A DNA stretch of 64,000 nucleotides, taken from positions 1 through 64,000 of the forward strand of contig CACEFS010000002.1 in the NCBI GenBank assembly GCA_902558895.1. Reading direction: 5' to 3'. Below are positions 3,166 through 16,011 of the stretch, one piece after another. The stretch's first letter is position 1, and every line of letters starts with the position of its first letter. The position numbers and the translations under genes were made by a program. The DNA is from an uncultured Prochlorococcus sp. (GTDB lineage Bacteria > Cyanobacteriota > Cyanobacteriia > PCC-6307 > Cyanobiaceae). The notes under the pieces are model-generated. The model saw nothing but the letters and a program-made list of their open reading frames with translations. It was not told where the DNA came from and did no database searches.

Positions 3166-3876
3166 ATGGGAAAAATGCTATCTACATATAAGTACCTAAA
3201 AAAACTGATCAGAAATATCTATCAAAAAGTACAGTGCTCATACATACGGTTATTTATTAGGGATAAATTTAAGTCCCAAGTTGCACTTTGGTATGCTGAA
3301 AATGGGAATAAAACAAAAAGACTAGATTACCCAAAGCTTAACCAAGAATCCATTGTATTTGATTTGGGAGGATATTTAGGTGATTTCGCATTTGATATAA
3401 ACCAAAAATATAGTAGTAAAGTTTACCTTTTTGAACCTCATCCAAAATTTTTTGAGAAATGCTGCATTCGATTTAAAAACAATAAAAATATACATGTATT
3501 TAATTATGGTATTGGAGATAAACATGGTATGTTTTTTTTATCTGATACATTAGATGGCTCTTCATTTGAAAATCCAAATCACGTAAATGAGAAATCAATA
3601 AAGTGCGAAATTAGAGATTTTTTAACAGTTATAGAAGATCTAGATATACCAAAAATTGATTTAATGAAAATAAACATTGAAGGGGATGAATATAAACTTT
3701 TGAACCATATTTTAAATAATGAAAAAATTACATTCACAGATCAGTATCAAATACAATTTCACAATTTCGTAGAAGGTGCTGAAAATAAACGTGAAAAAAT
3801 AATCTCTGAACTTAAAAAGACTCATAGCAGGACATGGTGTTATGAATTTGTATGGGAAAATTGGGAATTAGTTTAA
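3166..3876 (+). CDS. FkbM-family methyltransferase
   Basis: SAM-binding VFDLGGYLGDFA, FEPHPKFFEKC, DLMKINIEGDEYKLL motifs. Confidence 0.85.
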   Translation: MGKMLSTYKYLKKLIRNIYQKVQCSYIRLFIRDKFKSQVALWYAENGNKTKRLDYPKLNQESIVFDLGGYLGDFAFDINQKYSSKVYLFEPHPKFFEKCCIRFKNNKNIHVFNYGIGDKHGMFFLSDTLDGSSFENPNHVNEKSIKCEIRDFLTVIEDLDIPKIDLMKINIEGDEYKLLNHILNNEKITFTDQYQIQFHNFVEGAENKREKIISELKKTHSRTWCYEFVWENWELV

Positions 3877-3932
3877 GGAATTTGCAATATATCAATAGAT
3901 TTAATAAAAAAAACAATGAATATTTTTGAACT

Positions 3933-3975
3933 GGAGAGGTGGTCGAGTGGTTTAAGGCTCAAGTTTTGAAAACTA
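3933..3975 (+). repeat. Orphan tRNA-Ser 5' half (attachment-site relic)
   Basis: GGAGAGGTGGTCGAGTGGTTTAAGGCTCAAGTTTTGAAAACTA matches the 5' half of tRNA-Ser at 14633 with a few substitutions and no 3' half. Confidence 0.85.
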
Positions 3976-4070
3976 TCTTTTTGGAAAAAAAGAAAATTTA
4001 TAAATTATCTGTAATCGCTTGATATAATTTTATCTTATCAGTAAAACTATAAGAATAAAATACCCCTATC

Positions 4071-4096
4071 GAGACAGGGTAGACCAAATAGAGACC
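4071..4096 (+). promoter_or_regulatory. GAGACC-type direct-repeat doublet (putative integrase/Xis arm site)
   Basis: GAGACA(4071) tAGACC(4080) GAGACC(4091); last two spaced 11 bp. Confidence 0.55.
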
Positions 4097-4158
4097 AAAA
4101 AAATTTGTGTTAATTTTAAAAACCAAGATAAAATAATTTGCAAATAGCCGCTTTTTTT

Positions 4159-4635
4159 GTGAAAAGATTTTCAATAACTTTATTAGCTGCTATTACATTA
4201 CCTATCGCTGTTAACGCTGAAGTAACTAGTCATTATAGGTTAAAACGTACTGAAGCCCGAAAATTGTATCGTGAGGGAAAGTTTTCTGAGATGAAAAATA
4301 TATGCGAAGAACTTATAGAAATTTCACCAGATAATCCAATGGGATATGTATGCAAAGGATTTGCTTTGGGATTTGTACCTAAAAGTGAAAGAAAAAGTAG
4401 AGAGGCTCTAAAAAATTTCACAAAGGCAATAGAATTAAATCCTGAATATTATGAAGCATATTTTCTTAGGGGTTTTTTACAGTTTTCAATGAGAAGGAGA
4501 GAGTTTTCTAAGTTACAAATGAATGGATGTAGCGATATTAAAAAGGCTTACCTAAATAAGTTTCCTGATGCATTGGAATATGTAAAAAGACAAAGGTCGT
4601 TTTTGATAAAAAATAAATGTAGCGGTTTCTTTTAG
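4159..4635 (+). CDS. Secreted TPR-like protein (paralog of 5099-5563)
   Basis: GTG start gives VKRFSITLLAAITLPIAVNAE leader; TPR-like repeats (GYVCKGFALG...REALKNFTKAIELNPEYYEAYFLRG). Confidence 0.75.
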   Translation: MKRFSITLLAAITLPIAVNAEVTSHYRLKRTEARKLYREGKFSEMKNICEELIEISPDNPMGYVCKGFALGFVPKSERKSREALKNFTKAIELNPEYYEAYFLRGFLQFSMRRREFSKLQMNGCSDIKKAYLNKFPDALEYVKRQRSFLIKNKCSGFF

Positions 4636-4683
4636 AAAATGAAACACTTCCTACTTGCGCCACTAAGAGTTATTGATTGATAT

Positions 4684-4745
4684 TCAATATTAATAAAGTT
4701 GAATTACATCCAAGGATAAAAAAAATTAGAAACATACTTTTTTAT
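4684..4745 (+). repeat. ~60 bp direct repeat, copy 1 (copy 2 at 5613-5675)
   Basis: CAATATTAATAAAGTTGAATTACATCCAAGGAT..AAAAATTAGAAACATACTTTTTT in both places. Confidence 0.85.
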
Positions 4746-4754
4746 AAAAGTGAG

Positions 4755-4771
4755 AAGACCTCATAGAGACC
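4755..4771 (+). promoter_or_regulatory. GAGACC-type doublet
   Basis: AAGACC(4755) GAGACC(4766), 11 bp period. Confidence 0.5.
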
Positions 4772-4802
4772 AGTAAAAATATGTGCTAATTTTAAAACCA
4801 AG

Positions 4803-4834
4803 TTAAGATAAGGGGCAATTAGCTCCTTTTTTTT
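4803..4834 (+). promoter_or_regulatory. Recurrent -10 / hairpin leader
   Basis: TTAAGATAAGGGGCAATTAGCTCCTTTTTTTT directly before ATG. Confidence 0.6.
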
Positions 4835-5098
4835 ATGCCCAATACATTAGTTGTTTCTACCTTTGGTTGTCCTTTTTCTGAGTTTGAAATGATGGTAAAA
4901 AAAGTTGATAAAGAACAAGGATACGTTTTTTGTTCTGAGCTAGAAATCATCAAAGTAAATGAACATAAAGCAATGATTCTTATGAACTGTTCTGATTTAG
5001 AAAAGTTTGGTGCAATGCTTGAACAACCAGAATTAAAACAATGGGATATTGATAACAACTGTGTAGATACTGTATATAATCTTGAACTTGTTGAGTAA
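4835..5098 (+). CDS. Small conserved island protein
   Basis: 87 aa ORF; paralogous to pseudogene 2306-2565. Confidence 0.7.
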   Translation: MPNTLVVSTFGCPFSEFEMMVKKVDKEQGYVFCSELEIIKVNEHKAMILMNCSDLEKFGAMLEQPELKQWDIDNNCVDTVYNLELVE

Positions 5099-5563
5099 AT
5101 GAAACGCTTACTACTTCCATTACTAGCAGCTCTCGCTTTACCTACCGCTGTTCATGCTGAAGAAAATAGTGATTATAGGTTAAAATTTAATCAAGTCCAA
5201 AAATTAATAAGAGAGGGGAAGGTCTCTGAAATAGAACCAATATGTGATGAGCTTTTAGAAATAGCACCAGAAATTAATTTTGGATATGTATGCAAAGGAA
5301 TTGCTTTGGGGAAAAAAAAGAAAAGAGAGGCTTTAAGAAATTTCACGAAGGCAATTAAAATAAATCCTGAAAATTATGATGCATATTTTTTTAGGGGTGC
5401 TTTAATGTTTACAATGCGAAGGAGAAGAGATTTAGGATTTAATAGAACTGCCTGTAGGGATATGGAAAAGGCTTACTTAAATAATCATCCTTTTGCATTG
5501 GAATATGTAAAAAAAAATAAGTCTAATTTGGGAATAAGCTGTATAGGCTATCTATTTAATTAG
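5099..5563 (+). CDS. Secreted TPR-like protein
   Basis: MKRLLLPLLAALALPTAVHAE leader; GYVCKGIALG..REALRNFTKAIKINPENYDAYFFRGALMF. Confidence 0.8.
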   Translation: MKRLLLPLLAALALPTAVHAEENSDYRLKFNQVQKLIREGKVSEIEPICDELLEIAPEINFGYVCKGIALGKKKKREALRNFTKAIKINPENYDAYFFRGALMFTMRRRRDLGFNRTACRDMEKAYLNNHPFALEYVKKNKSNLGISCIGYLFN

Positions 5564-5612
5564 AAAATTAAACGCTCACTATTTGCATAATTAAGCGTTT
5601 TTTATTGACGTC

Positions 5613-5675
5613 CAATATTAATAAAGTTGAATTACATCCAAGGATTTTGAAAAAATTAGAAACATACTTTTTTTA
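5613..5675 (+). repeat. ~60 bp direct repeat, copy 2
   Basis: Matches 4684-4745. Confidence 0.85.
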
Positions 5676-5686
5676 ATAAGAATTAG

Positions 5687-5703
5687 GAGACTAAATAGAG
5701 ACC
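5687..5703 (+). promoter_or_regulatory. GAGACC-type doublet
   Basis: GAGACT(5687) GAGACC(5698), 11 bp period. Confidence 0.5.
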
Positions 5704-5851
5704 ATTTTTCTATAAAAAAACACCTTTTTAAACACTTAAAGAAAATAAATCAAAAACCATATTTTTAATTTCAAATATCTACTAAATTAGAAAACCTTTC
5801 TGTAACTCGATACTGCTATAATTCAAAAGTTAATACTAAATATTTAACCCT

Positions 5852-5891
5852 GGAGGGGTGGTCGAGTGGTTTAAGGCTCTAGTCTTGAAAA
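5852..5891 (+). repeat. attL: orphan tRNA-Ser(UGA) 5' half
   Basis: 40 bp identical to the 5' half of the intact tRNA-Ser at 14633, ending in the anticodon loop (..AGTCTTGAAAA). Confidence 0.9.
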
Positions 5892-5943
5892 GTTTCTAAG
5901 GTTGTAGTTATATCAATTAGTTTAATACGTTACTTGACTACTG

Positions 5944-5961
5944 TTTCCGACTTGTTTCCGA
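5944..5961 (+). promoter_or_regulatory. TTTCCGA doublet, left end
   Basis: ctgTTTCCGActtgTTTCCGAaac; 11 bp period; near-identical to 14461-14484. Confidence 0.65.
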
Positions 5962-5982
5962 AACAGTTATTTTTTTGGGTCT

Positions 5983-5999
5983 CTAGTCTTGAAGACTAG
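5983..5999. promoter_or_regulatory. Palindromic mimic of the tRNA-Ser anticodon stem-loop (possible core-type site)
   Basis: CTAGTCTT-G-AAGACTAG; tRNA version is CTAGTCTTGAAAACTAG. Confidence 0.5.
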
Positions 6000-6087
6000 C
6001 GATTTGTGTAGAGGAATTGCTTGACTTTCCAAGAAATTTCCACAACAATATATTTAAGACGTTGAATAAACCCCCAATTTATTCTGA

Positions 6088-6185
6088 AGTTGCGGTGCCT
6101 CGTAGTTCGCTTGTGTCGGTGACCAAGTAAATCTGGCAGTTATCCCAGCACTAAGTCGGTGGCTTAGGAAAAGGAAGAACTCAGT
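6088..6185 (+). ncRNA. Candidate structured RNA / operator region
   Basis: GC-richer non-coding stretch with hairpins CTGGcagttatcCCAG (6133-6148) and CTAAGTCggtGGCTTAG (6151-6167) upstream of the HTH gene. Confidence 0.35.
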
Positions 6186-6217
6186 AAGGGAAATATAAAA
6201 ATTACATTTACAGAAAA

Positions 6218-6508
6218 ATGGTATCTCCTAGTGCGGAGGTGCGAGTTGATCGGTTGATAGCTGAAGTAGAAAATCTTACTTGTCAGGTTAAACAACTTAT
6301 TGAACTTACACCCCAAAGAAACAAAGTCTGGTTAAGACCCAGCGAAATAGCCACATTAGTTGGCGTAACTTATCGGCAGATTGCCAGGTACAGAGAACAA
6401 GGAATATTTAAAGTTGATAGCTACAGATTTAATGGCAACAGATACGAATATCACAATGTTAGAGCCTTAGCAGATTTTGAATCTAGGAAAGGCGGTTATG
6501 AAAAATAA
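6218..6508 (+). CDS. HTH protein, MerR/excisionase-like
   Basis: VWLRPSEIATLVGVTYRQIARYREQGIFKVDSYRFNGNRYEYHNVRALADFE winged-HTH pattern. Confidence 0.7.
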   Translation: MVSPSAEVRVDRLIAEVENLTCQVKQLIELTPQRNKVWLRPSEIATLVGVTYRQIARYREQGIFKVDSYRFNGNRYEYHNVRALADFESRKGGYEK

Positions 6509-6644
6509 GCAAATTAAGGTCGTTTTTTTAGTAGATGATTTTGTATTCCAAAGTTTAGAAGAAGCACAAAAGTTTGTTAGCGATCGTGAGTTCGAGAGTT
6601 CCGAAAAAGAACCCAACCCTAGTTACAAAGGGAGGGACATTTGA
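6498..6644 (+). CDS. Small hypothetical protein
   Basis: MKNKQIKVVFLVDDFVFQSLEEAQKFVSDREFESSEKEPNPSYKGRDI*; stop abuts the GTG of the primase gene. Confidence 0.6.
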   Translation: MKNKQIKVVFLVDDFVFQSLEEAQKFVSDREFESSEKEPNPSYKGRDI

Positions 6645-7574
6645 GTGTTACTTCCCAAAGATTTAGCTTTGCTAAAAACATTAGAAAAAGATTTTGTTCT
6701 TTTACCAGTTGGTGCAGACCACCCAAATTCTTTAATTAAAAAGAAAAAAGCACCTGTTAATCCTTCAGGAGGTTTGCTAAAGGGTTGGAATAAACCAGAA
6801 CTGAAAGGGTTTACTGTAGATCAACTTTGGAACTATAGGTCTGCTATATCTGTTGGCGTTAGATGCGACAACTTATTTGTCGAAGATATAGACGGAGACT
6901 CCGCAACTAAAGGATTAAATAGATTACTCGGTTGGGGTGAACCTACCTGGACTATTAGAAGAACTGGTTGCGAAGGACATTTTAAAAGAATATTCTGTCC
7001 CACCGAAGCACAATTAAGTGCTATTCCTCCTAATGCTAAAGGTAAAAAGGAAATTAGTTTTCCTATTTATACCTTAGAAGAACCTGACCGCAGAGAAGCT
7101 ATCGAGTTCTTCGGAAATACACTTGGGCGACAAGTTATTGTTTCGGGTTCTCACTTTTCTAGTGGCGGTAGGTATTACTGGAACGAGAACGAGAGTCCTA
7201 AATTTATTAGACCTCCAAGCGTTAGGGAGTGGAATAAAGTTCTTAAATTGTGGAAGCAGTACAAAGACGAAAAAGTTCCTACACCTGGACTTGTTACTAA
7301 GAGCAAAACTGGTTGGACTAGGCTCGCTGAGTGTCCTATTTGTGGACGAGTCGAAAGGCCTGTCTGCACCATCACCGAAGACCAAAATACAATAAGTTGT
7401 TTTCACGGAATTACTTATAGGCCACCGCTTGATCTGAAGAAAGGCGAAGTCATATTTAATACTTGGGCATATTCAAAGACTGAAGATAAATCTTTTGGGA
7501 GGTTCTCATATTTCGCAAGACATAGACCTAGCTCACTCGAATTGCTTAATCGGAGGTTACAGATTAGTGGTTAA
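6645..7574 (+). CDS. Bifunctional DNA primase/polymerase (Prim-Pol) domain protein
   Basis: LFVEDIDGDSA metal-site-like motif; RQVIVSGSHFSSGGRYYW motif; CPICG..Cys-rich segment; GTG start. Confidence 0.75.
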   Translation: MLLPKDLALLKTLEKDFVLLPVGADHPNSLIKKKKAPVNPSGGLLKGWNKPELKGFTVDQLWNYRSAISVGVRCDNLFVEDIDGDSATKGLNRLLGWGEPTWTIRRTGCEGHFKRIFCPTEAQLSAIPPNAKGKKEISFPIYTLEEPDRREAIEFFGNTLGRQVIVSGSHFSSGGRYYWNENESPKFIRPPSVREWNKVLKLWKQYKDEKVPTPGLVTKSKTGWTRLAECPICGRVERPVCTITEDQNTISCFHGITYRPPLDLKKGEVIFNTWAYSKTEDKSFGRFSYFARHRPSSLELLNRRLQISG

Positions 7575-9069
7575 TTTAGTTAAAGGACTACCAGAAGGTT
7601 GGAATGAGAGAAACGGAATAACTAGATCGCAAGAACTAGACCCTGGGAGGTTAAGTCTTCTATTAAAAGAACAACTGAAAGAGAGATTAAGGTTTAATTT
7701 ACTGACTCTTAAACCAGAACTAGACGGAGTTGAATTGGCCGAGACAGAAATAACTTATTTATATGTAAAGCTGGGCGAGTGTGGTTGGAAAGTTGGAAAG
7801 CAAGCCGCAATAGACGCAATAATTTATGCTTCTCAAAAGAATAGTTATGACCCAGTAAAAGAATATTTACTAAGCCTGGAACAACAAAAGAAGGAGTTAA
7901 AGCTATACGAAGCGGACGTTGATAATATTGCAAGCGACTATCTGAACATCAAATACGAAGACAAACTAAGCAATAAAATGGTTAAGAATTGGTTAGTTGG
8001 TCAGGTAAGAAGGGCTTTCCATAGAGGTTGCAAACATGACACTATGCTTGTCCTACAAGGAGATCAAGGAATCGGAAAAAGTTCATTTTTTAGTGCGTTA
8101 ATGCCTAAGGCTGATTGGTTCAGCGACACCCCCACAAGTGACCCAAAAGATCGGTTATTAATTATCCAAAGTTCTTGGTGCTACGAAATAGCAGAACTAG
8201 AAAACCTAACCTCGAAAAACGAATCTTTTAAAGTTAAAGCATTACTTACAAGTTCTTACGATACTTTTAGACCTCCTTATGGTCGTTCTTTAATCAAAGG
8301 TGCTAGACCTTCTTGTTTAGTTGGTACTGCCAATAGCACCGAACTTTTGAATGATGAAACAGGGCATAGACGATTTAATTTTGTTCATGTAACTGAACCT
8401 ATAAATATTGAACAAGTTAAAAGCGATAGGGACGCAATTTGGCTTAGTGCTGTTCTTGCCTATAGAGAAGGTTATGAACCAATACTTGATAAGGAAGAAA
8501 GTCAGTTAAGTGAAGTAAGGAGTACCAATTATGAAAAGGAAAATATATTCCAGGATATTGTCCTGGACTATTTAGAGTCTGCACCCGACTATTTCACAAC
8601 AAGACAAGTATTCTTAGGAACTCAATTAATAACTCCATACGAAAACCCAAAACAATTAGATGCTGTTCAGGTTGGAAAAGTCCTAACTTCTTTAGGCTAC
8701 GAAAAAAGACAAATGAGAGTAAATAAAACTAGAGGTAGGTACTGGCATAAAAAAGAGACACAAGGGAAAGTCCCAGGTGTCCCAGACTCGGAAGATGATG
8801 ATGTGACAGCCGACTCCCCAGCGATAGACAGCGATAGCGGAAACTGTCCCAATGTCACAACCAAAAATAAGGAAAGTAATCAAAGAGAGAGTGTTAAGCA
8901 CAAGGCCATTCGCTGGGAAACTGGCGGGGACAATGTGACACCGAAGAAAACCTTCTCAAACGTAGTGGTGGGCTATAAAAAAACGTCCCAACACCCCAAA
9001 CTTAAAATGTCACAAGAAGAACAAACGAAGGCTCAACAAGATTTAGACGAGTATTGGAACTCATTATAA
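7567..9069 (+). CDS. VapE/D5-like replication helicase
   Basis: Walker A LVLQGDQGIGKSSFFSALM; RPSCLVGTANSTELLNDETGHRRF; probable GTG start 7567 overlapping the upstream stop, with GGAGG at ~7552. Confidence 0.8.
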   Translation: MVNLVKGLPEGWNERNGITRSQELDPGRLSLLLKEQLKERLRFNLLTLKPELDGVELAETEITYLYVKLGECGWKVGKQAAIDAIIYASQKNSYDPVKEYLLSLEQQKKELKLYEADVDNIASDYLNIKYEDKLSNKMVKNWLVGQVRRAFHRGCKHDTMLVLQGDQGIGKSSFFSALMPKADWFSDTPTSDPKDRLLIIQSSWCYEIAELENLTSKNESFKVKALLTSSYDTFRPPYGRSLIKGARPSCLVGTANSTELLNDETGHRRFNFVHVTEPINIEQVKSDRDAIWLSAVLAYREGYEPILDKEESQLSEVRSTNYEKENIFQDIVLDYLESAPDYFTTRQVFLGTQLITPYENPKQLDAVQVGKVLTSLGYEKRQMRVNKTRGRYWHKKETQGKVPGVPDSEDDDVTADSPAIDSDSGNCPNVTTKNKESNQRESVKHKAIRWETGGDNVTPKKTFSNVVVGYKKTSQHPKLKMSQEEQTKAQQDLDEYWNSL

Positions 9070-9132
9070 AAAGCGTATTTTTTCGTATTTAGACGGCTTA
9101 AAATATTCATAGAAAAAAAAATTACTATTGTT

Positions 9133-9330
9133 ATGAACAGTAAGTATTACAGGGAATATTTAACCCAGGTTCATAGGCTGAACGGAATAGAAATGGTTGT
9201 TGCACCGCCCGATTTAAGAATGATTGTAATTGACCACAATAAACCTGATGATGAATTACCAGTAGTTGATAAGTTAACTCAATGGGATTTAGTCCTAGAG
9301 ATAGAAAAACCGCCCATTCATAGCATCTAA
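9133..9330 (+). CDS. Hypothetical protein
   Basis: 65 aa ORF, convergent with the recombinase at 9327. Confidence 0.45.
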   Translation: MNSKYYREYLTQVHRLNGIEMVVAPPDLRMIVIDHNKPDDELPVVDKLTQWDLVLEIEKPPIHSI

Positions 9331-9962
9331 GCAAAGGCTTGGACTACGTTCTTTCGTTCCTCCTCGGAAACCTCTAAATATCGAGATAAAACCGCTAAAC
9401 TTTTATGACCACTTAGGGTCTGAATCGCCTTTAATGGCAATCCTTTTGAGCTTGCACTTGAGAGTGCCGAACGCCTATAAGAGTGGCTTGAAACGCCTTT
9501 AAAACCAATCCTTTCAATAGTGTTCTGTAGTTGTTTTCCGTGTGCCTGGCGAGTTATTGGTTTATCGCCAAAACGTCCAACAAATACCCAATCACTTGGA
9601 CTAACTGGTTGGCCTTTTATAAGTTCGGTTTGATGTTTCCATTTGATAAGAAGGTCATACAAACTTGGGAAGATTGGAACAGTTCGAGCTTCCAATTTAT
9701 TTTTCACAATTTGTTTTGGAAAAGTTATTCCAGTTGGAAAAATGTTTTCCCATTTGAGTTGCCTGGCTTCTGAAATTCTGCAACCTGTTCGGCGACAAAC
9801 ATTAGCCAGGACTGTATGAACTCCTCCAGGAAGTTCTTCGATTAATAGGTCAAGTTCAGCAGTTGTTAAAACTTTTGACTGACCATTACGATTAGTCTTC
9901 ATAGCGTGTGATAAGTTTTCTAGTTGCCGAGAAGCTAGTTGTAGACGTGTAAATAACGTCAA
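9327..9962 (-). CDS. Tyrosine recombinase (catalytic domain), second in the element
   Basis: TGCRISEARQL, HSYRRSALSSASSKG, LSGHKSLAVLSRYLEV: R..HxxR..GH..Y catalytic set. Confidence 0.88.
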   Translation of the reverse strand: MTLFTRLQLASRQLENLSHAMKTNRNGQSKVLTTAELDLLIEELPGGVHTVLANVCRRTGCRISEARQLKWENIFPTGITFPKQIVKNKLEARTVPIFPSLYDLLIKWKHQTELIKGQPVSPSDWVFVGRFGDKPITRQAHGKQLQNTIERIGFKGVSSHSYRRSALSSASSKGLPLKAIQTLSGHKSLAVLSRYLEVSEEERKNVVQAFA

Positions 9963-10343
9963 GTTTCTCTTACTGACATTTTAGAAACTCAATTCGCTGA
10001 AAAATATCCAATATTACTTAAATAAAATACAGTATTTCTTATAGATAGACGTATTACAAATAATAGATAAAAATATTATTATTTTCTCGAATTACCTATG
10101 TTACATATAAAGAATACTCATTTGACTTTATAGTCATAATAGGGGGAGTAGTCCAAAAAATTTGATTTTTATTTCCACCTACGGGGAACTTACTTAAACA
10201 AAATAATAACACTAATTAATAAATAGTGCAACTACATAGGGTGTCAAAAATAATACAAATTAAACAGCCCAGGGAAATATACAAATCGGCTGATCGGTAG
10301 ATAAAAACTATCTTAGAATTTTAATAAGGAGTCATGTCGTTAA

Positions 10344-10571
10344 ATGGCAAATCAAAGACATATCAACGAAGACTGGCAGTTCCAACAAAGGTGCTTGAAG
10401 TGTGGTTTGAAGCTATTTCCTTATAGTTCACAAGACGCTGAAGACTGGGCGGCAATGGCCTACCACGAGTGCCAAAGAAGGAACATTTCGCCACGTCAGT
10501 TGATGTATGAGAGGAGTCCAAACATAGACAATACTCACGCACAAAGACCACCAAAAGTTATCTATTACTAG
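10344..10571 (+). CDS. Hypothetical protein with CxxC
   Basis: 75 aa, AAGGAG upstream, RCLKCG motif. Confidence 0.6.
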   Translation: MANQRHINEDWQFQQRCLKCGLKLFPYSSQDAEDWAAMAYHECQRRNISPRQLMYERSPNIDNTHAQRPPKVIYY

Positions 10572-10573
10572 AC

Positions 10574-11062
10574 ATGAAACACCCTCTACTTGATCGCTGG
10601 GTCAGAGTTCTAAGTTCTATCAATCCAGGAAAACCAATTCCGAATATTAATACTGTTTCTAGAGCAAATATGTCGGTAACACTCCAAGAGAGGTTAAGAG
10701 ATATAGACCCCGAACTATTTCAGGCTGTCTTTGCAACTCCAATAGAAGAAATAGAAGACTCAAGACTCCAACAACATTTGTATGACCAAGCATTTTGGAC
10801 AGATGACGAAGACCAATTAAGGCGGTACGGCTACGAAAAATTTGCGAATACGATCAGGGACGAAAAAATAAAATATGAGAATGACAAGATAGAAAAAGAG
10901 ATTGAAGCAAGTCGCCAAAGACAAGAACTTCAAAGGCAAGAGAGAGAGAAAAAAGCAAATATGTCGTTAATGGACAGAATGCACGAAGAATCAAAGAAAC
11001 AAACAACAGCAGACGTAATTAACAACCAACTTAGGTATCACGGAAGGATAGGAACAAACTAG
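10574..11062 (+). CDS. Hypothetical protein, charged/coiled-coil C-terminal half
   Basis: 162 aa; co-oriented and tightly spaced with neighbours. Confidence 0.65.
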   Translation: MKHPLLDRWVRVLSSINPGKPIPNINTVSRANMSVTLQERLRDIDPELFQAVFATPIEEIEDSRLQQHLYDQAFWTDDEDQLRRYGYEKFANTIRDEKIKYENDKIEKEIEASRQRQELQRQEREKKANMSLMDRMHEESKKQTTADVINNQLRYHGRIGTN

Positions 11063-11067
11063 AAATT

Positions 11068-11541
11068 ATGAGTATTAGCAAGGTAGGAAGACCAAGTATT
11101 AGCGAAAGTGAAGTTCCCCCACATATCGAGGAAGCGTTGTTGCATAAAGCTAGGGGGAAGAGCTGGACGGATAGTGCAACTGCTGTGGGGTTGAAGAAAT
11201 ACCAAACTTTGCGAGAGTGGGTCAACAAGAACGATAAAGCTAAGAAGTTCTACAAAGAAGCAGTCCAGGAAAGGCAAGAACGAATCCAGGATAAGTTAGA
11301 CAACAGCTACGAAATGCTTATTGAATCAGCACCCGAAGTGGCTGTTCAACTATTGAAAATCATAAGGAACGAGAAGACAAAAGGGTATGCAAAAACTGAA
11401 GCTATTAATGCCTTCTTCCGAATAATAGAAAGGGGTTGGAGTGATAAGAAACTTGCTGAAGCACTACAAGAAACTAAAGAAAGAATCGACTACTTAGAAA
11501 CTGGAAGACCAATTCAACTAACAGAAAGTCCTATTAAGTAG
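11068..11541 (+). CDS. Terminase-small-subunit-like / HTH protein
   Basis: VGRPSISESEVPPHIEEALLHKARGKSWTDSATAVGLKKYQTLREWVNKNDKAKKFYKEAVQERQERIQDKL: N-terminal HTH plus helical segment as in small terminases. Confidence 0.55.
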   Translation: MSISKVGRPSISESEVPPHIEEALLHKARGKSWTDSATAVGLKKYQTLREWVNKNDKAKKFYKEAVQERQERIQDKLDNSYEMLIESAPEVAVQLLKIIRNEKTKGYAKTEAINAFFRIIERGWSDKKLAEALQETKERIDYLETGRPIQLTESPIK

Positions 11542-11564
11542 CTCTAGCAAAATTTTTTATTTAA

Positions 11565-12545
11565 TCAGCTTTTGGTAAGAACAAATCTTTTCATAGTTGT
11601 TTTATTTAGAGCAATCTTCTTAATTTGTCCATCTCTATCAATTTTTAAAATAGCTTTATCAGTATCTAATAACCTCCATACTTTAGAAGCATCATTTAAA
11701 CCATCAGTAGAAACATTATTTATCTCAAGGATTAAATCATTTTCTTTAATACCCGCAAATTCTGCTGGAAAACCTTTTATGACTGAAATGATTTGAACCT
11801 GATTTAATTCGTTAAGAACGAATCTAAACCCAAAAACTTTGTATTCTTTATATCTATTAGAAAGTGTATTAATAGCAATCTGATCTTTTTTGTTTGGTTT
11901 TCCTTTTGAAAACTTTTGAAAATTTGAAGGACGTAATGAGTCAATTTTATGACAATTCTCCTCAGCATAAACGCCCACGTAATTATTTCTTTGAACTGGT
12001 TTCCATTTTTTATGTTCTCCAAAATTCTTCCAGGTTTCATCTAAGCAATCAATAACTGCCGTATATTTTACTTGTCTAACTCCTCCTGGAGTAGCGGATC
12101 TTCCTGGAATAGTTAATTGTGGTGCAGGAGTAGTCGTACAATTTATTGAGTATGATCCTCCATAACAATTTGTTGTTCCAGAACCAATTGTTGTAGTTGA
12201 GCCAGGCCTCCCTGCCACTGGTTCTTGATACCATCTAATTACAATGTCAAAAGAAATATATCGTCCATATAGTCCTCTCGCTTTTACTTTCCTAACAACT
12301 TTTTCTACATACTGAACTTTATTATCAGCCCTCACCTCGAACATTTGCCAATTTGGGATAATTGGTTTACCTAAAAAATCAAATTTTTCTACTTTTATTT
12401 TTTCTACAGGTTGAGTATAAGCACGAACACATCCCTCAAAGTCTGCTGCAGCTAAGCATGCTTTACGAACTTCTGGATCTACATTCGCATTAACAGCAGT
12501 AGGTAAAGCGATAGCAGCTAGTAGTGGGAGTAGAAAGCGTTTCAT
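11565..12545 (-). CDS. Secreted protein with C-terminal PDZ-like domain
   Basis: MKRFLLPLLAAIALPTAVNAN leader; VQIISVIKGFPAEFAGIKENDLILEINNVSTDGLNDASKVWRLL PDZ signature. Confidence 0.8.
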   Translation of the reverse strand: MKRFLLPLLAAIALPTAVNANVDPEVRKACLAAADFEGCVRAYTQPVEKIKVEKFDFLGKPIIPNWQMFEVRADNKVQYVEKVVRKVKARGLYGRYISFDIVIRWYQEPVAGRPGSTTTIGSGTTNCYGGSYSINCTTTPAPQLTIPGRSATPGGVRQVKYTAVIDCLDETWKNFGEHKKWKPVQRNNYVGVYAEENCHKIDSLRPSNFQKFSKGKPNKKDQIAINTLSNRYKEYKVFGFRFVLNELNQVQIISVIKGFPAEFAGIKENDLILEINNVSTDGLNDASKVWRLLDTDKAILKIDRDGQIKKIALNKTTMKRFVLTKS

Positions 12546-13235
12546 TTACCTAAATTCAATAGTTGTATTTGTATTTACATTAGTTCTCTGAATCATTATT
12601 GGTCTTGTTTCTTTTCTCATTTTGTACTCTCTCCAATACGCTTCGTGTTCTTTTTCAGTCATACAGCCAAGCTCTTCTAATCTTCTCCCAAACAAACCAA
12701 CTTTACGCCATCGCATTTCTTCATTTTTGGCACATTCGCGACTAGGCTTGTAGGTTTTTCCTTTATAGGTAAACGTAAAGTAATCAATATCTGAGACCCC
12801 TGGAAATACTTCTTTTCGTATTCTTTCTGGGTTATTTAAATCTATCCTCGTTTTCTCAAATTCTGTTAATTCTAATCCAGGGATTTTTCTGAAAAAAACC
12901 ATATTTTCTCCTTTTGTTTCTAGACAATCAACATACAAATTTACTGATCCAAGAGTTATACATTGTTCATGATTTTTAAAAGACACATTAAATATTTTTG
13001 AACCTAATTTTTCTGAATACTGTATACAATTCTCGATATCAGACTCCCATTCTAAGTTACAAAAATTCCTTTGATTTTTTCCTAGTTTAAATTTTTCATT
13101 TTTACTATTAGCTTTCACACATCCAATATAATCAGAGACATCTTTGCAAAGGTTATGAACTTCAGGATCAACTCCTGCACTAACAGCAGTAGGCAAAGCT
13201 AGGGCTGCTAGTAGTGGGAGTAGTAAGCGTTTCAT
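12546..13235 (-). CDS. Secreted hypothetical protein, Cys-rich
   Basis: MKRLLLPLLAALALPTAVSAG leader; stop directly abuts the next ATG; start overlaps the int stop (ATGA). Confidence 0.75.
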   Translation of the reverse strand: MKRLLLPLLAALALPTAVSAGVDPEVHNLCKDVSDYIGCVKANSKNEKFKLGKNQRNFCNLEWESDIENCIQYSEKLGSKIFNVSFKNHEQCITLGSVNLYVDCLETKGENMVFFRKIPGLELTEFEKTRIDLNNPERIRKEVFPGVSDIDYFTFTYKGKTYKPSRECAKNEEMRWRKVGLFGRRLEELGCMTEKEHEAYWREYKMRKETRPIMIQRTNVNTNTTIEFR

Positions 13236-14446
13236 TTATTTAGCTTCTTACTAGCTTTTATAGCATCTATTTGTTCGTAAGTAGAGTTATAAATCTCATA
13301 GTGAGTATTAATTGAGTGACCAAGACTTTTACTGGCAACCCTCGCATCTAACCCAGCGTGAATACTTCTAACTCCCCAATTATGTCTAATATCAGTAAGT
13401 TGTAAGAATCCAATACCCAACTCTTTAGCCCTGGGCGTTAGATACCTTAACCATTGGTTACCAAGATATTTTGTTCTAGTTGGGTCATAAGAATTTAAGT
13501 CAAAACTATATTCTCGTTGAATATTATCCAGTTCCCATTTTCTTGCTAACTCAGCAGTAAGTGCGATTGGATATTTGATATACATAGACTTCTTACCTTT
13601 TGGAATACAAACACTTGTGGCAGTACCACTATCTAAGTCAGGCATGAGTGAGAAAGTTTCACCGCTACGAGTGCCGTAACAGAAAGCACTAGCTGTAAGC
13701 CAACCCCACTTGTCGTTATCTCGAACCATTTCGACCAACTCTATTAGCTTTGCTGGGTCAATATTTACTCTTTGCTTGGCTTTGTATTTACCAACAAACT
13801 CATCAATAAGTTCTACATTATTTAGTCCATTAGCTTCAGCAAGTCGTTTGTAGTATTGGCAGAGTTTTCTTCTTTTGTCAGACTCAGGCTCACTTTGTTT
13901 TATCTCATCAATTAAGACTCCCATATTTAGAGTTGCATTTTGTGGAAGTTTATTTAAGTGACCTAGTATTCCTTTCCAGGTCTGTTGCTTTGGTAATTTA
14001 TTTCTATCCTTGTCTTTCCAGTAATCAAGTTCAAATATTTTTATAGCTTCATTAACAGTTATTCCTTTCGATACTCCTTTTAACTCAATCTTTGGTGCGT
14101 CCCACATTAGTTGGTCTGGTATAAATCCATTTTTATTCACATATTCAACTAGGGTTAATATTCTGGCTTCTGCTGAGACTAGGTTGTTTATATCTGCACT
14201 CAATCTGGTTGGAATCTTACGTTCTTTTTTAATTCCGTCCGAATCCGCAAAAGTTCCACGAATAAATAAATGATTACGTCCTACAACCAGCTTTGCTTTT
14301 ATGCTTCTTGTCTTAAGTCTCTTATTTAAGTCCGATATTGCAGAAAGTGTTTCCGAATCTGTTTCCGAATTTATTGCACCCAGACCCCTACCTGGTACAC
14401 TACCGCCAGACCCTTTTTTGTTACCAATTCCAAAAATTCTTGCCAT
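13232..14446 (-). CDS. int: Tyrosine recombinase / integrase adjacent to tRNA-Ser
   Basis: YGTRSGE, LTDIRHNWGVRSI, KSLGHSINTHYEIYNSTY; located next to the tRNA. Confidence 0.88.
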   Translation of the reverse strand: MARIFGIGNKKGSGGSVPGRGLGAINSETDSETLSAISDLNKRLKTRSIKAKLVVGRNHLFIRGTFADSDGIKKERKIPTRLSADINNLVSAEARILTLVEYVNKNGFIPDQLMWDAPKIELKGVSKGITVNEAIKIFELDYWKDKDRNKLPKQQTWKGILGHLNKLPQNATLNMGVLIDEIKQSEPESDKRRKLCQYYKRLAEANGLNNVELIDEFVGKYKAKQRVNIDPAKLIELVEMVRDNDKWGWLTASAFCYGTRSGETFSLMPDLDSGTATSVCIPKGKKSMYIKYPIALTAELARKWELDNIQREYSFDLNSYDPTRTKYLGNQWLRYLTPRAKELGIGFLQLTDIRHNWGVRSIHAGLDARVASKSLGHSINTHYEIYNSTYEQIDAIKASKKLNK

Positions 14447-14463
14447 TTGGTTAGGTTAGTCTG

Positions 14464-14521
14464 TTTCCGAATTGTTTCCGAATCTATGTCCTAAAATGTC
14501 GCAGAATGTCAAGTATATGTC
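14464..14521 (-). promoter_or_regulatory. Phased repeat array upstream of int (TTTCCGA x2, ATGTC x4)
   Basis: TTTCCGA at 14464, 14475; ATGTC at 14486, 14496, 14506, 14517; spacings 11,11,10,10,11 bp. Confidence 0.7.
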
Positions 14522-14632
14522 AAGTGTTAGGAAATAGTTTATAAGCAATAATAAACAGGCTAAAACTCGTATTGTAGGCTGTCACTTCCCTTTGCTATAC
14601 TACTTAGGTGGTTAAAACTGAATAACCCTTTT

Positions 14633-14719
14633 GGAGGGGTGGTCGAGTGGTTTAAGGCTCTAGTCTTGAAAACTAGCGTGTCTGCAAGGGCACCGTGGGT
14701 TCGAATCCCACCCCCTCCG
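14633..14719 (+). tRNA. trnS: tRNA-Ser(UGA)
   Basis: GGAGGGG/CCCCTCC acceptor, anticodon loop CTTGAAA in CTAGT/ACTAG stem, long variable arm, GGTTCGAATCC T-loop. Confidence 0.95.
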
Positions 14720-14743
14720 TACTACACAACTGACTTTTCAAGG

Positions 14744-14771
14744 TACAACTCCTTTTAGGAGTTTTTTTTAT
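14744..14771 (+). terminator. Rho-independent terminator after tRNA-Ser
   Basis: AACTCCTTTTAGGAGTTTTTTTT. Confidence 0.8.
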
Positions 14772-14834
14772 TTTCTTTGAATTTAGATTAGTTCCTTAGA
14801 GTTCTTCTCCATTACCGTAAATAGAGGAAAAAAC

Positions 14835-14851
14835 GGTTACATTTCGGTTAC
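14835..14851 (+). promoter_or_regulatory. GGTTAC doublet, left end of right-hand relic R1
   Basis: cGGTTACatttcGGTTAC, 11 bp period. Confidence 0.6.
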
Positions 14852-14886
14852 ACATATTAAAGAGGTGCAAGGTGTAAGGGTTTCAT

Positions 14887-15303
14887 TTAAAAAGCTCTGT
14901 CTTCTAATGAAACTTTTTTGCATTTCCCTCTTCCATTTTTTCGAAATTCATAATCACCTCGTCTGGTACTACCATCGGCACCTATAAATGAACTAAATAT
15001 AAATCGACCATTAAACCTATTGATATTAAGAGAATACCTATCACCTGAACCAATTTCATAGCCAACGATATTAAAACTACCAGTAGACTGAGATAATCTC
15101 TGTTCATATGAATCTATTCCTTATACGACCACTTCACCTTTCTTAGGTTTTATAGCAACTTCAAGATATGGATATAGATGTGATGATGATTTACAAGCCA
15201 AATAAATCTCGTCAGGCCAAATCTTTTCAACAAAATCTTTTTCAGCATTAACAGCAGTAGGAAAAGCGATAGCAGCTAATAAAGGTATTAAAAATCTCTT
15301 CAC
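14887..15303 (-). pseudogene. Leader-bearing secreted protein interrupted by in-frame TAA
   Basis: VKRFLIPLLAAIAFPTAVNAEKDF...KKGEVVV*GIDSYEQRLSQSTGSFNIVGYEIGSGDRYSLNINRFNGRFIFSSFIGADGSTRRGDYEFRKNGRGKCKKVSLEDRAF*; 417 nt stays in frame across the stop. Confidence 0.7.
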
Positions 15304-15379
15304 TAAAAATCAGCCAATGGCCCTTATTTTATATCGATATTAGAAAAATAAAAACGTAATTATAAAGTAATTAAGTTTC

Positions 15380-15396
15380 GGTTACGTTTCGGTTAC
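15380..15396 (+). promoter_or_regulatory. GGTTAC doublet, right end of relic R1
   Basis: cGGTTACgtttcGGTTAC, 11 bp period. Confidence 0.6.
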
Positions 15397-15443
15397 ATTT
15401 GTTCCTTAAACAATACCAAATCAATTGATATGACTGGAAGCCA

Positions 15444-15504
15444 TCTAGACTTGAAAACTAGCGTGTCTGCAAGGGCACCGTGGGTTAGAATCCCACCCCC
15501 TCCG
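15444..15504 (+). repeat. Orphan tRNA-Ser 3' half #1
   Basis: TCTAGACTTGAAAACTAGCGTGTCTGCAAGGGCACCGTGGGTTAGAATCCCACCCCCTCCG; T-loop mutated, 5' half absent. Confidence 0.9.
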
Positions 15505-15528
15505 TACTACACAACTGACTTCTCAAGA

Positions 15529-15553
15529 TATAACTCCTTTTAGGAGTTTTTTT
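15529..15553 (+). terminator. Duplicated tRNA-Ser terminator
   Basis: AACTCCTTTTAGGAGTTTTTTT; same context as 14744. Confidence 0.75.
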
Positions 15554-15620
15554 ATTTTCTTTGAGAATAGATTAATTCCTTATAGTTCCCCTCAGTTACC
15601 GTATATTGGATAACAAAAAC

Positions 15621-15665
15621 GGTCATATTTCGGTCATAATGTTTGAAACGGTCATAAGCGGTCAT
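15621..15665 (+). promoter_or_regulatory. GGTCAT repeats (four copies), left end of relic R2
   Basis: GGTCAT at 15621, 15632, 15650, 15660. Confidence 0.6.
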
Positions 15666-15729
15666 ATCAGACTAGAGTATTTAAATTTTGACAATCGATC
15701 TACAATAAAGGGCAACTATCCACTATTTT

Positions 15730-16011
15730 ATGCTGTTTCTTATTTCTTATAAATTTACTGATGCAAAAGCCCAAGACCAGGGATCCAAAATGTTAAAAGA
15801 ATGGTATGACCAAGGAGGGCCGCAAAATAGACCAGAGGGTTATGACGTTAAATCTTGGATTTTCTTACCTCAACATGGCAATGGTTACTCTGTTGTAGAT
15901 GCTGATTCATTAGAAACTATTTGGAAACAGTGGCGTCCTTGGAGAGAATTATTGGAATTTACTATTGAACCTTGTGCAGATTTAGATCAGACAGTAGCTC
16001 TTTATTGTTAA
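15730..16011 (+). CDS. DUF3303-like protein
   Basis: MLFLISYKFTDAKAQDQGSKMLKEWYDQGGPQNRPEGYDVKSWIFLPQHGNGYSVVDADSLETIWKQWRPWRELLEFTIEPCADLDQTVALYC. Confidence 0.7.
   Translation: MLFLISYKFTDAKAQDQGSKMLKEWYDQGGPQNRPEGYDVKSWIFLPQHGNGYSVVDADSLETIWKQWRPWRELLEFTIEPCADLDQTVALYC

Follow-up and report, generated by a model that had tools for sequence, protein, structure and literature searches.

The window analysed here is a 64,000-nucleotide stretch of the genome of an uncultured Prochlorococcus sp. (contig C2 of a 1.15 Mb source genome, 70% complete), and it carries an 8,781 bp element at positions 5892–14672, within tRNA-Ser(UGA). The only tRNA that ARAGORN detected in the window was tRNA-Ser(TGA) at 14632–14720. 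Its 5′ half, reaching the anticodon loop, is present twice as a 41 bp direct repeat with 100% identity (5851–5891 and 14632–14672), and it is this duplication that delimits the element. The left, exact copy is attL (5851–5891, + strand), within which lies the 7 bp overlap CTTGAAA (5884–5890, +), and attR is the intact tRNA (14632–14720, +), with a 5′ half from the element and a 3′ half from the host. Joining the host left flank to the tRNA 3′ half reconstituted an intact tRNA at the predicted empty site. A preliminary description of this DNA had proposed a segment of ~8.8 kb bounded by a tRNA-Ser duplication; this holds, except that the repeat measures 41 bp rather than 40 bp, with position 14672 as the end of its right copy. 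The element is best read as the satellite form of a tycheposon, a known kind of element (Hackl et al, 2023, Cell; known to us as cited in PMC10872708, PMC10187409, and PMC11389934). Near its left end lies a dyad that mimics the target tRNA, which we propose to be an operator bound by the integrase.

The left part of the element holds the xis-rep operon, with xis96 (6218–6508, +), a MerR/helix-turn-helix (HTH) excisionase-regulator candidate. It matched an excisionase-like HTH family in PHROGs (phrog_7735, E 1.2e-5) and HTH_17 in Pfam below cutoff, and it is kept in the relatives L025, L027, L036, L165, and L168. It is followed by a small open reading frame (ORF) that differs among relatives (6498–6644, +), a Prim-Pol domain protein (6645–7574, +; PF09250, E 2.4e-6, above cutoff), a VapE-like protein or DNA helicase (7567–9069, +; PF05272, E 8.7e-61), for which relatives retain the start at 7567, and a small conserved protein of 65 aa (9133–9330, +). 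The replication-packaging module has a GC content of 38%, against 31% in the neighbouring host DNA. On the right, two cargo genes, for a PDZ-domain protein with a signal peptide (11565–12545, −; Pfam) and for a 229-aa protein whose signal-peptide cassette is the same (12546–13235, −), precede int404 (13232–14446, −). This site-specific tyrosine integrase is divergent from the tRNA, starts ~185 bp from it and matches PF00589 weakly (E 0.0046); its active-site residues R260, K283, R354, H355, H377, and Y386 were invariant across nine integrases. Hackl et al reportedly place tycheposon recombinases in a deep-branching clade, a membership with which the weak Pfam score of int404 is compatible. The Pfam and PHROGs matches of the element included no capsid, portal, tail, or large terminase gene, and PADLOC found no convincing defence gene. 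The gene set outlined in the preliminary description (excisionase or regulator candidate, replication module, small terminase candidate, integrase, no structural genes) was thus recovered from Pfam and PHROGs, with the correction that there are two recombinases and not one.

The second recombinase, int211 (9327–9962, −; PF00589, E 5e-20), is a short tyrosine recombinase consisting of the catalytic domain only. Its active site is apparently intact, and across genera it is conserved beside a module formed by g75 (10344–10571, +) and g162 (10574–11062, +), conserved proteins of 75 and 162 aa, and a 157-aa small-terminase-like protein (TerS candidate; 11068–11541, +). The role of int211 is possibly dimer or concatemer resolution. 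The product of 11068–11541 is likely to be a TerS. It matched the TerS family phrog_1482 (E 9.5e-7), members of its own family matched six PHROG TerS families, and its similarity to Pfam TerS models was below cutoffs. That it is instead a transcription regulator or a transposase-like HTH protein, so that no phage packaging would pass through it, seems to us rather doubtful: Pfam returned just weak HTH models, below cutoff, and a transposase PHROG also matched, but neither the six TerS families nor the predicted architecture fits this alternative well. In the comparison with TerS folds that the preliminary description had asked for, AlphaFold2 (19 homologues, mean pLDDT 77) gave three N-terminal helices arranged as an HTH, followed by a helix of 45 residues and by helices at the C terminus. 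When this model was searched with Foldseek against 350,542 PDB chains, the best three matches were all Sf6 TerS (top probability 0.92; E 0.14, not significant). The order int211-g75-g162-TerS, which likewise speaks against a regulator or transposase-like HTH protein, recurs often across the family, where relatives of the TerS candidate were found in 56 of 400 genomes and 15 of 59 genera. Apparent stops inside TerS relatives were considered as recoding and this was rejected, since the stops are terminal.

A cyanophage relative was sought among 50,697 phage records, and no convincing match to the TerS candidate was obtained; when phage records were searched by tblastn with TerS, g162, and g75, the matches were at chance level only. 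A helper phage can therefore not be named. In IMG/VR, scans with the single TerS and VapE proteins and with the integrase alignment gave no match, and the scan with the TerS alignment returned L114 alone, a contig that runs on into host nrdJ. The int211-g75-g162-TerS module is a target for asking whether such elements ride in cyanophage particles.

The preliminary description had set homologous elements and precise empty sites as its test, and both were found. Four further genomes from the genus encode homologues of int404 (97, 97, 96, and 80% identity). L027, a complete genome, carries a near-whole element (VapE 99%, int211 99.5%) with a different cargo gene that, by reading of its sequence, may be HNH-like; L025 carries another (integrase 97%) with small ORFs only in the cargo slot. 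L032 and L038 have partial homologous elements at tRNA-Ser, and L026 has an integrase as in the window element and a wholly different interior. Empty sites were seen in L102, L111, and L113, in which the order is nrdJ-88aa-hli-tRNA-Ser-66aa and there is no 5′-half copy. Homologues that differ in cargo, together with the empty sites, show that the element has been precisely gained or lost between strains, and since it recurs in other genomes with unchanged boundaries, it did not arise by chance. Among 266 genomes of the genus, 42 contained a total of 48 tRNA-Ser-type left ends, belonging to elements that range from ~167 bp micro-duplications to more than 17 kb; no 5′ halves of initiator tRNA-Met were found in the 266 genomes.

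Next to attL, ~50 bp past the overlap, the unit TGTTTCCGA is repeated in tandem, the two copies 11 bp apart (5942–5961, +). The same pair is present at the right end (14462–14481, +), and a third pair lies within the integrase gene, at its 5′ end (14348–14368, +). In relatives the units are likewise equal at both ends and specific to the element (TGTTTCCGA in the window and L025, AGTTCCGAA in L027, AATGATGACT in L036, GTGGCCT in L033), and they co-vary with the integrase, the pattern that arm-type integrase sites would show. L026 is a hybrid, with a left end and left arms of the L165 type and a right end, right arms, and integrase of the window type. This mismatch of left and right arms, together with the decay of the flanking tRNA copies described below, would suit a degenerate, immobile island with a non-working integrase. 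We consider such an island very improbable in the window, where all reading frames are open, the att halves are exact and the arms are equal at both ends, and where near-identical parts recur elsewhere with different cargo (the VapE and int211 of L027, the integrase of L025).

Between the left arms and the xis-rep operon we found a dyad, CTAGT-CTTGAAG-ACTAG (5983–5999), that mimics the anticodon stem of the tRNA (CTAGT-CTTGAAA-ACTAG) and could act as an accessory core site. Its centre is 104 bp from the attL overlap, and its own overlap differs from that of attB (CTTGAAA). On its 3′ side, 5′ of the operon, is a promoter-like site, TTGACT-17-AACAAT (6021–6049, +), which is weak, shuffled sequences yielding similar counts. 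To quantify the dyad, the best match to the 23-nt tRNA anticodon region was scored at tRNA-Ser left ends, micro-duplications left out (n = 30). The scores were bimodal: 12 of the 30 reached 15–21 of 23, all at an offset of 85–88, and the other 18 did not exceed 12, compared with 0.56% of control windows reaching 15 (binomial p 7e-20). The dyad was present in ten elements with int or xis homologues and absent from three (L179–181), and among ~14 elements lacking such homologues it was present in L166 alone (Fisher p 3e-4, for rows that are not fully independent and lie in some cases on cut contigs). Left dyads accompany integrases of both deep clades.

Across non-redundant Ser elements, the half-sites were 91 and 100% identical, whereas identity was 56% in the overlap and 32–34% in the flanks. 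As the half-sites are conserved and the overlap is not, which is expected for protein binding without strand exchange, selection is apparently directed at the half-sites and not at the overlap. Recombination at the dyad itself is judged unlikely: the overlaps depart from that of attB at as many as 4 of 7 positions, and such mismatches as a rule strongly inhibit tyrosine recombinases (PMC10865867). The dyad was also considered as the site of the second recombinase, and this was rejected: L026, L036, L165, and L168 have a dyad and no int211 match.

The tRNA-Ser site is a nested array, and this bears on where the dyad came from. An older, diverged 5′-half copy at 3931–3978 (+) forms the left end of a flanking 1.9 kb cargo element without integrase (3979–5850), and a copy of the tRNA 3′ half with its downstream flank (15444–15558, +; 94% over 115 bp) lies as a remnant on the far side of the tRNA. 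The array, the arm repeats and the dyad were overlooked in the preliminary description, which was right that a tRNA-Ser element is present. With other tRNA halves at the site, and with 5′-half duplications of ~167 bp being common, the element might be an ordinary satellite-type tycheposon and its dyad a functionless relic of an earlier nested insertion. We find this unlikely. A relic would be expected to decay evenly, which the contrast between half-sites, overlap and flanks does not show, and the fixed position and the association with the int/xis module speak against it as well.

Similar dyads were found at other tRNAs. At tRNA-Pro left ends, the half-site GTAGCGCGGGTGC reached at least 10 of 13 positions in 21 of 28 cases (2.5% of control windows reach 10), 20 of them at an offset of 88–91; L208 has the half-site at an offset of 139. 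Several Pro elements carry a full dyad, e.g., GCGGGTGC-CTAGTAA-GCACCCGC. Identity among Pro elements was 90% in the left half-site, 36% in the overlap and 58% in the upstream flank, and since the flanks are also related, part of the Pro conservation reflects ancestry. Outside Prochlorococcus, the distant elements L114, L157, and L158 have a dyad at +7, +18, and −5 of the int start, of the form CTAGT or CTGGT matching the host tRNA stem, with a changed overlap and, in L114, one mismatch. A tRNA-Arg form was seen at −80 in L154, and at −65 L021/L022 carry a form with a single mismatch. The int starts were extrapolated from alignments and these positions are approximate; the chance that a dyad with no more than a single mismatch falls within 25 bp of such a start was estimated at ~1.5e-3 per element. 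That these dyads follow each tRNA is again difficult to reconcile with a relic.

A further alternative is that the dyad works as an RNA device: transcription reading through from the host tRNA promoter would be halted at attL by an intrinsic terminator or a hairpin. The promoter side of the tRNA is indeed retained there, 5983–5999 was called terminator-like in a scan, and some Pro dyads, such as that of L214, are GC-rich hairpins followed by T runs. However, most Ser dyads are without a following T run, many Pro copies consist of a half-site that forms no hairpin, and a terminator needs neither a copy of the target tRNA nor a place at the int start, so we regard an RNA device as distinctly unlikely. 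Nor does a known structured RNA explain the dyad, as Rfam gave nothing but the tRNA above threshold in 3800–16000.

The dyad lies beside the arms and near a weak promoter-like site or, in distant elements, at the int start, and this placement suggests an operator. With moderate confidence, we favour a joint explanation, built from sequence comparison, in which the element is a satellite-type tycheposon and the dyad a recombination-dead operator bound by the integrase. Under this proposal, int404 would recombine in the anticodon loop of tRNA-Ser(UGA) to bring about excision and integration, the element's own Prim-Pol/VapE module would copy it, and the TerS-like protein would probably divert the packaging of a helper cyanophage, with interchangeable cargo being carried along. 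The integrase would bind core, arms, and dyad. Because the dyad copies both integrase half-sites of the target tRNA around a 7 bp spacer unlike the attB overlap, it would be bound without recombining, and integrase sitting on it, beside the arms and the xis-rep promoter, may repress or gate transcription and synapsis. In distant relatives, a dyad bound by integrase at the int start codon could serve as the operator. The outcome would be an integrase level coupled to excision and replication. It is, on these comparisons, an even call whether an operator in the form of a recombination-dead copy of the integrase core site of the target tRNA is a general feature of tycheposons. If it is, the code of its attachment site would serve the integrase as a transcription signal, and switching to another target tRNA would need a joint change of integrase specificity, attP, and operator, which would be traceable from sequence alone.

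Several observations weigh against this explanation. L179–181, three closely similar left ends of one lineage, have a xis homologue and no dyad. The overlap is unchanged in L047 (Ser) and L215 (Pro), and Pro elements are often without the right half-site, besides having the related upstream flanks (58%) noted above. A strict CTGGT dyad pattern at the left-end spacing was found in none of the 400 family genomes, so that the fixed left position is limited to the Prochlorococcus data. As to packaging, the match to the Sf6 TerS fold is not significant on its own, and IMG/VR, which may not hold such particles, yielded no relative of the element save one chromosomal contig.

The tycheposon-type reading given in the preliminary description is borne out by the boundaries, the gene set, the homologues and the empty sites; redirection of packaging, induction by phage, and present mobility are inferred. 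The tycheposon traits present are a tRNA boundary with a direct repeat, an adjacent tyrosine recombinase, gain and loss between strains, and cargo. In the passages of the citing papers, tycheposons are likewise described as tRNA-bounded elements of Prochlorococcus with an adjacent tyrosine recombinase, some being proposed phage satellites and some carrying cargo, and the size range of 4–200 kb, as quoted in PMC10872708, includes the 8,781 bp found here. The element also resembles phage-inducible chromosomal islands (PICI), P4-like satellites and VEIMEs in having an integrase, an excisionase candidate, a replication module, and a TerS candidate without a full set of virion genes; unlike them, it has no visible gene for capsid-size remodelling. 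With the PICMI it shares the form of a small marine satellite without capsid genes that encodes an integrase, an HTH regulator and a primase. The PICMI model requires the fis gene, AlpA, and a DUF3987/DUF5906 primase (PMC10803314), whereas the element lies in tRNA-Ser and has a Prim-Pol, a VapE-like protein and a MerR-like HTH protein.

For the control region, the closest parallel is IntS of KplE1, where binding of the integrase at the attachment region represses integrase expression, as has been suggested for most tRNA-associated integrases (PMC2951348). A similar role of the integrase, bound at the attachment region as a repressor, may apply in the element. The KplE1 operator overlaps attL itself, whereas that of the element would stand apart from it, as a dyad up to 104 bp away whose overlap does not match; such a separate, recombination-dead operator would be a variation on integrase autorepression. 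We did not find a control region made of a dyad plus arms described, a provisional statement in that the founding tycheposon paper (Hackl et al, 2023) is outside the comparison, nor, that paper aside, an account of tycheposon excision control in the sources consulted. The matched arms and the tRNA-tracking dyad thus offer a concrete control region that is open to testing, and a marker that helps to tell cargo-only remnants from elements that possess a recombination module. Tycheposons presumably remodel the genomic islands of Prochlorococcus, which ranks among the most abundant photosynthetic organisms.

Smaller insertions were also seen at tRNA-Ser. The element at 3979–5850 of the window and those of L176, L177, and L178 are 1.1–1.9 kb long, lack an integrase, share the left end ACTATCTTTTT, have arm-like repeats of their own (GAGACC) and are likely to be non-autonomous cargo elements. 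About fifteen genomes have the tRNA-Ser 5′ half duplicated just ~167 bp 5′ of the tRNA, some with arm-like repeats (L042, L044, L050–L052, L058, L060, L063–L065, L068, L070, L071, L074, and L078), and these may be micro-elements or deletion scars. Copies of the tRNA 3′ half located 3′ of the tRNA, at 14673–15558 of the window and in L028, L030, and L031, with secreted-protein genes between in several of them, are a second insertion class on the opposite side of tRNA-Ser.

Lastly, a near-identical signal-peptide cassette, MKRLLLPLLAALALPTAVNA, is common to otherwise unrelated secreted proteins (PDZ, TPR-like, and others), with a DNA identity of 83–89%. It resembles an exchangeable cassette for cargo. 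In the window it is present at 5099, 12487–12545, 13177–13235, and 15245–15302, and on G000:C10 at 9779 and 12974. The source genome contains five copies that fit the strict pattern, one of them near tRNA-Thr/tRNA-Tyr.

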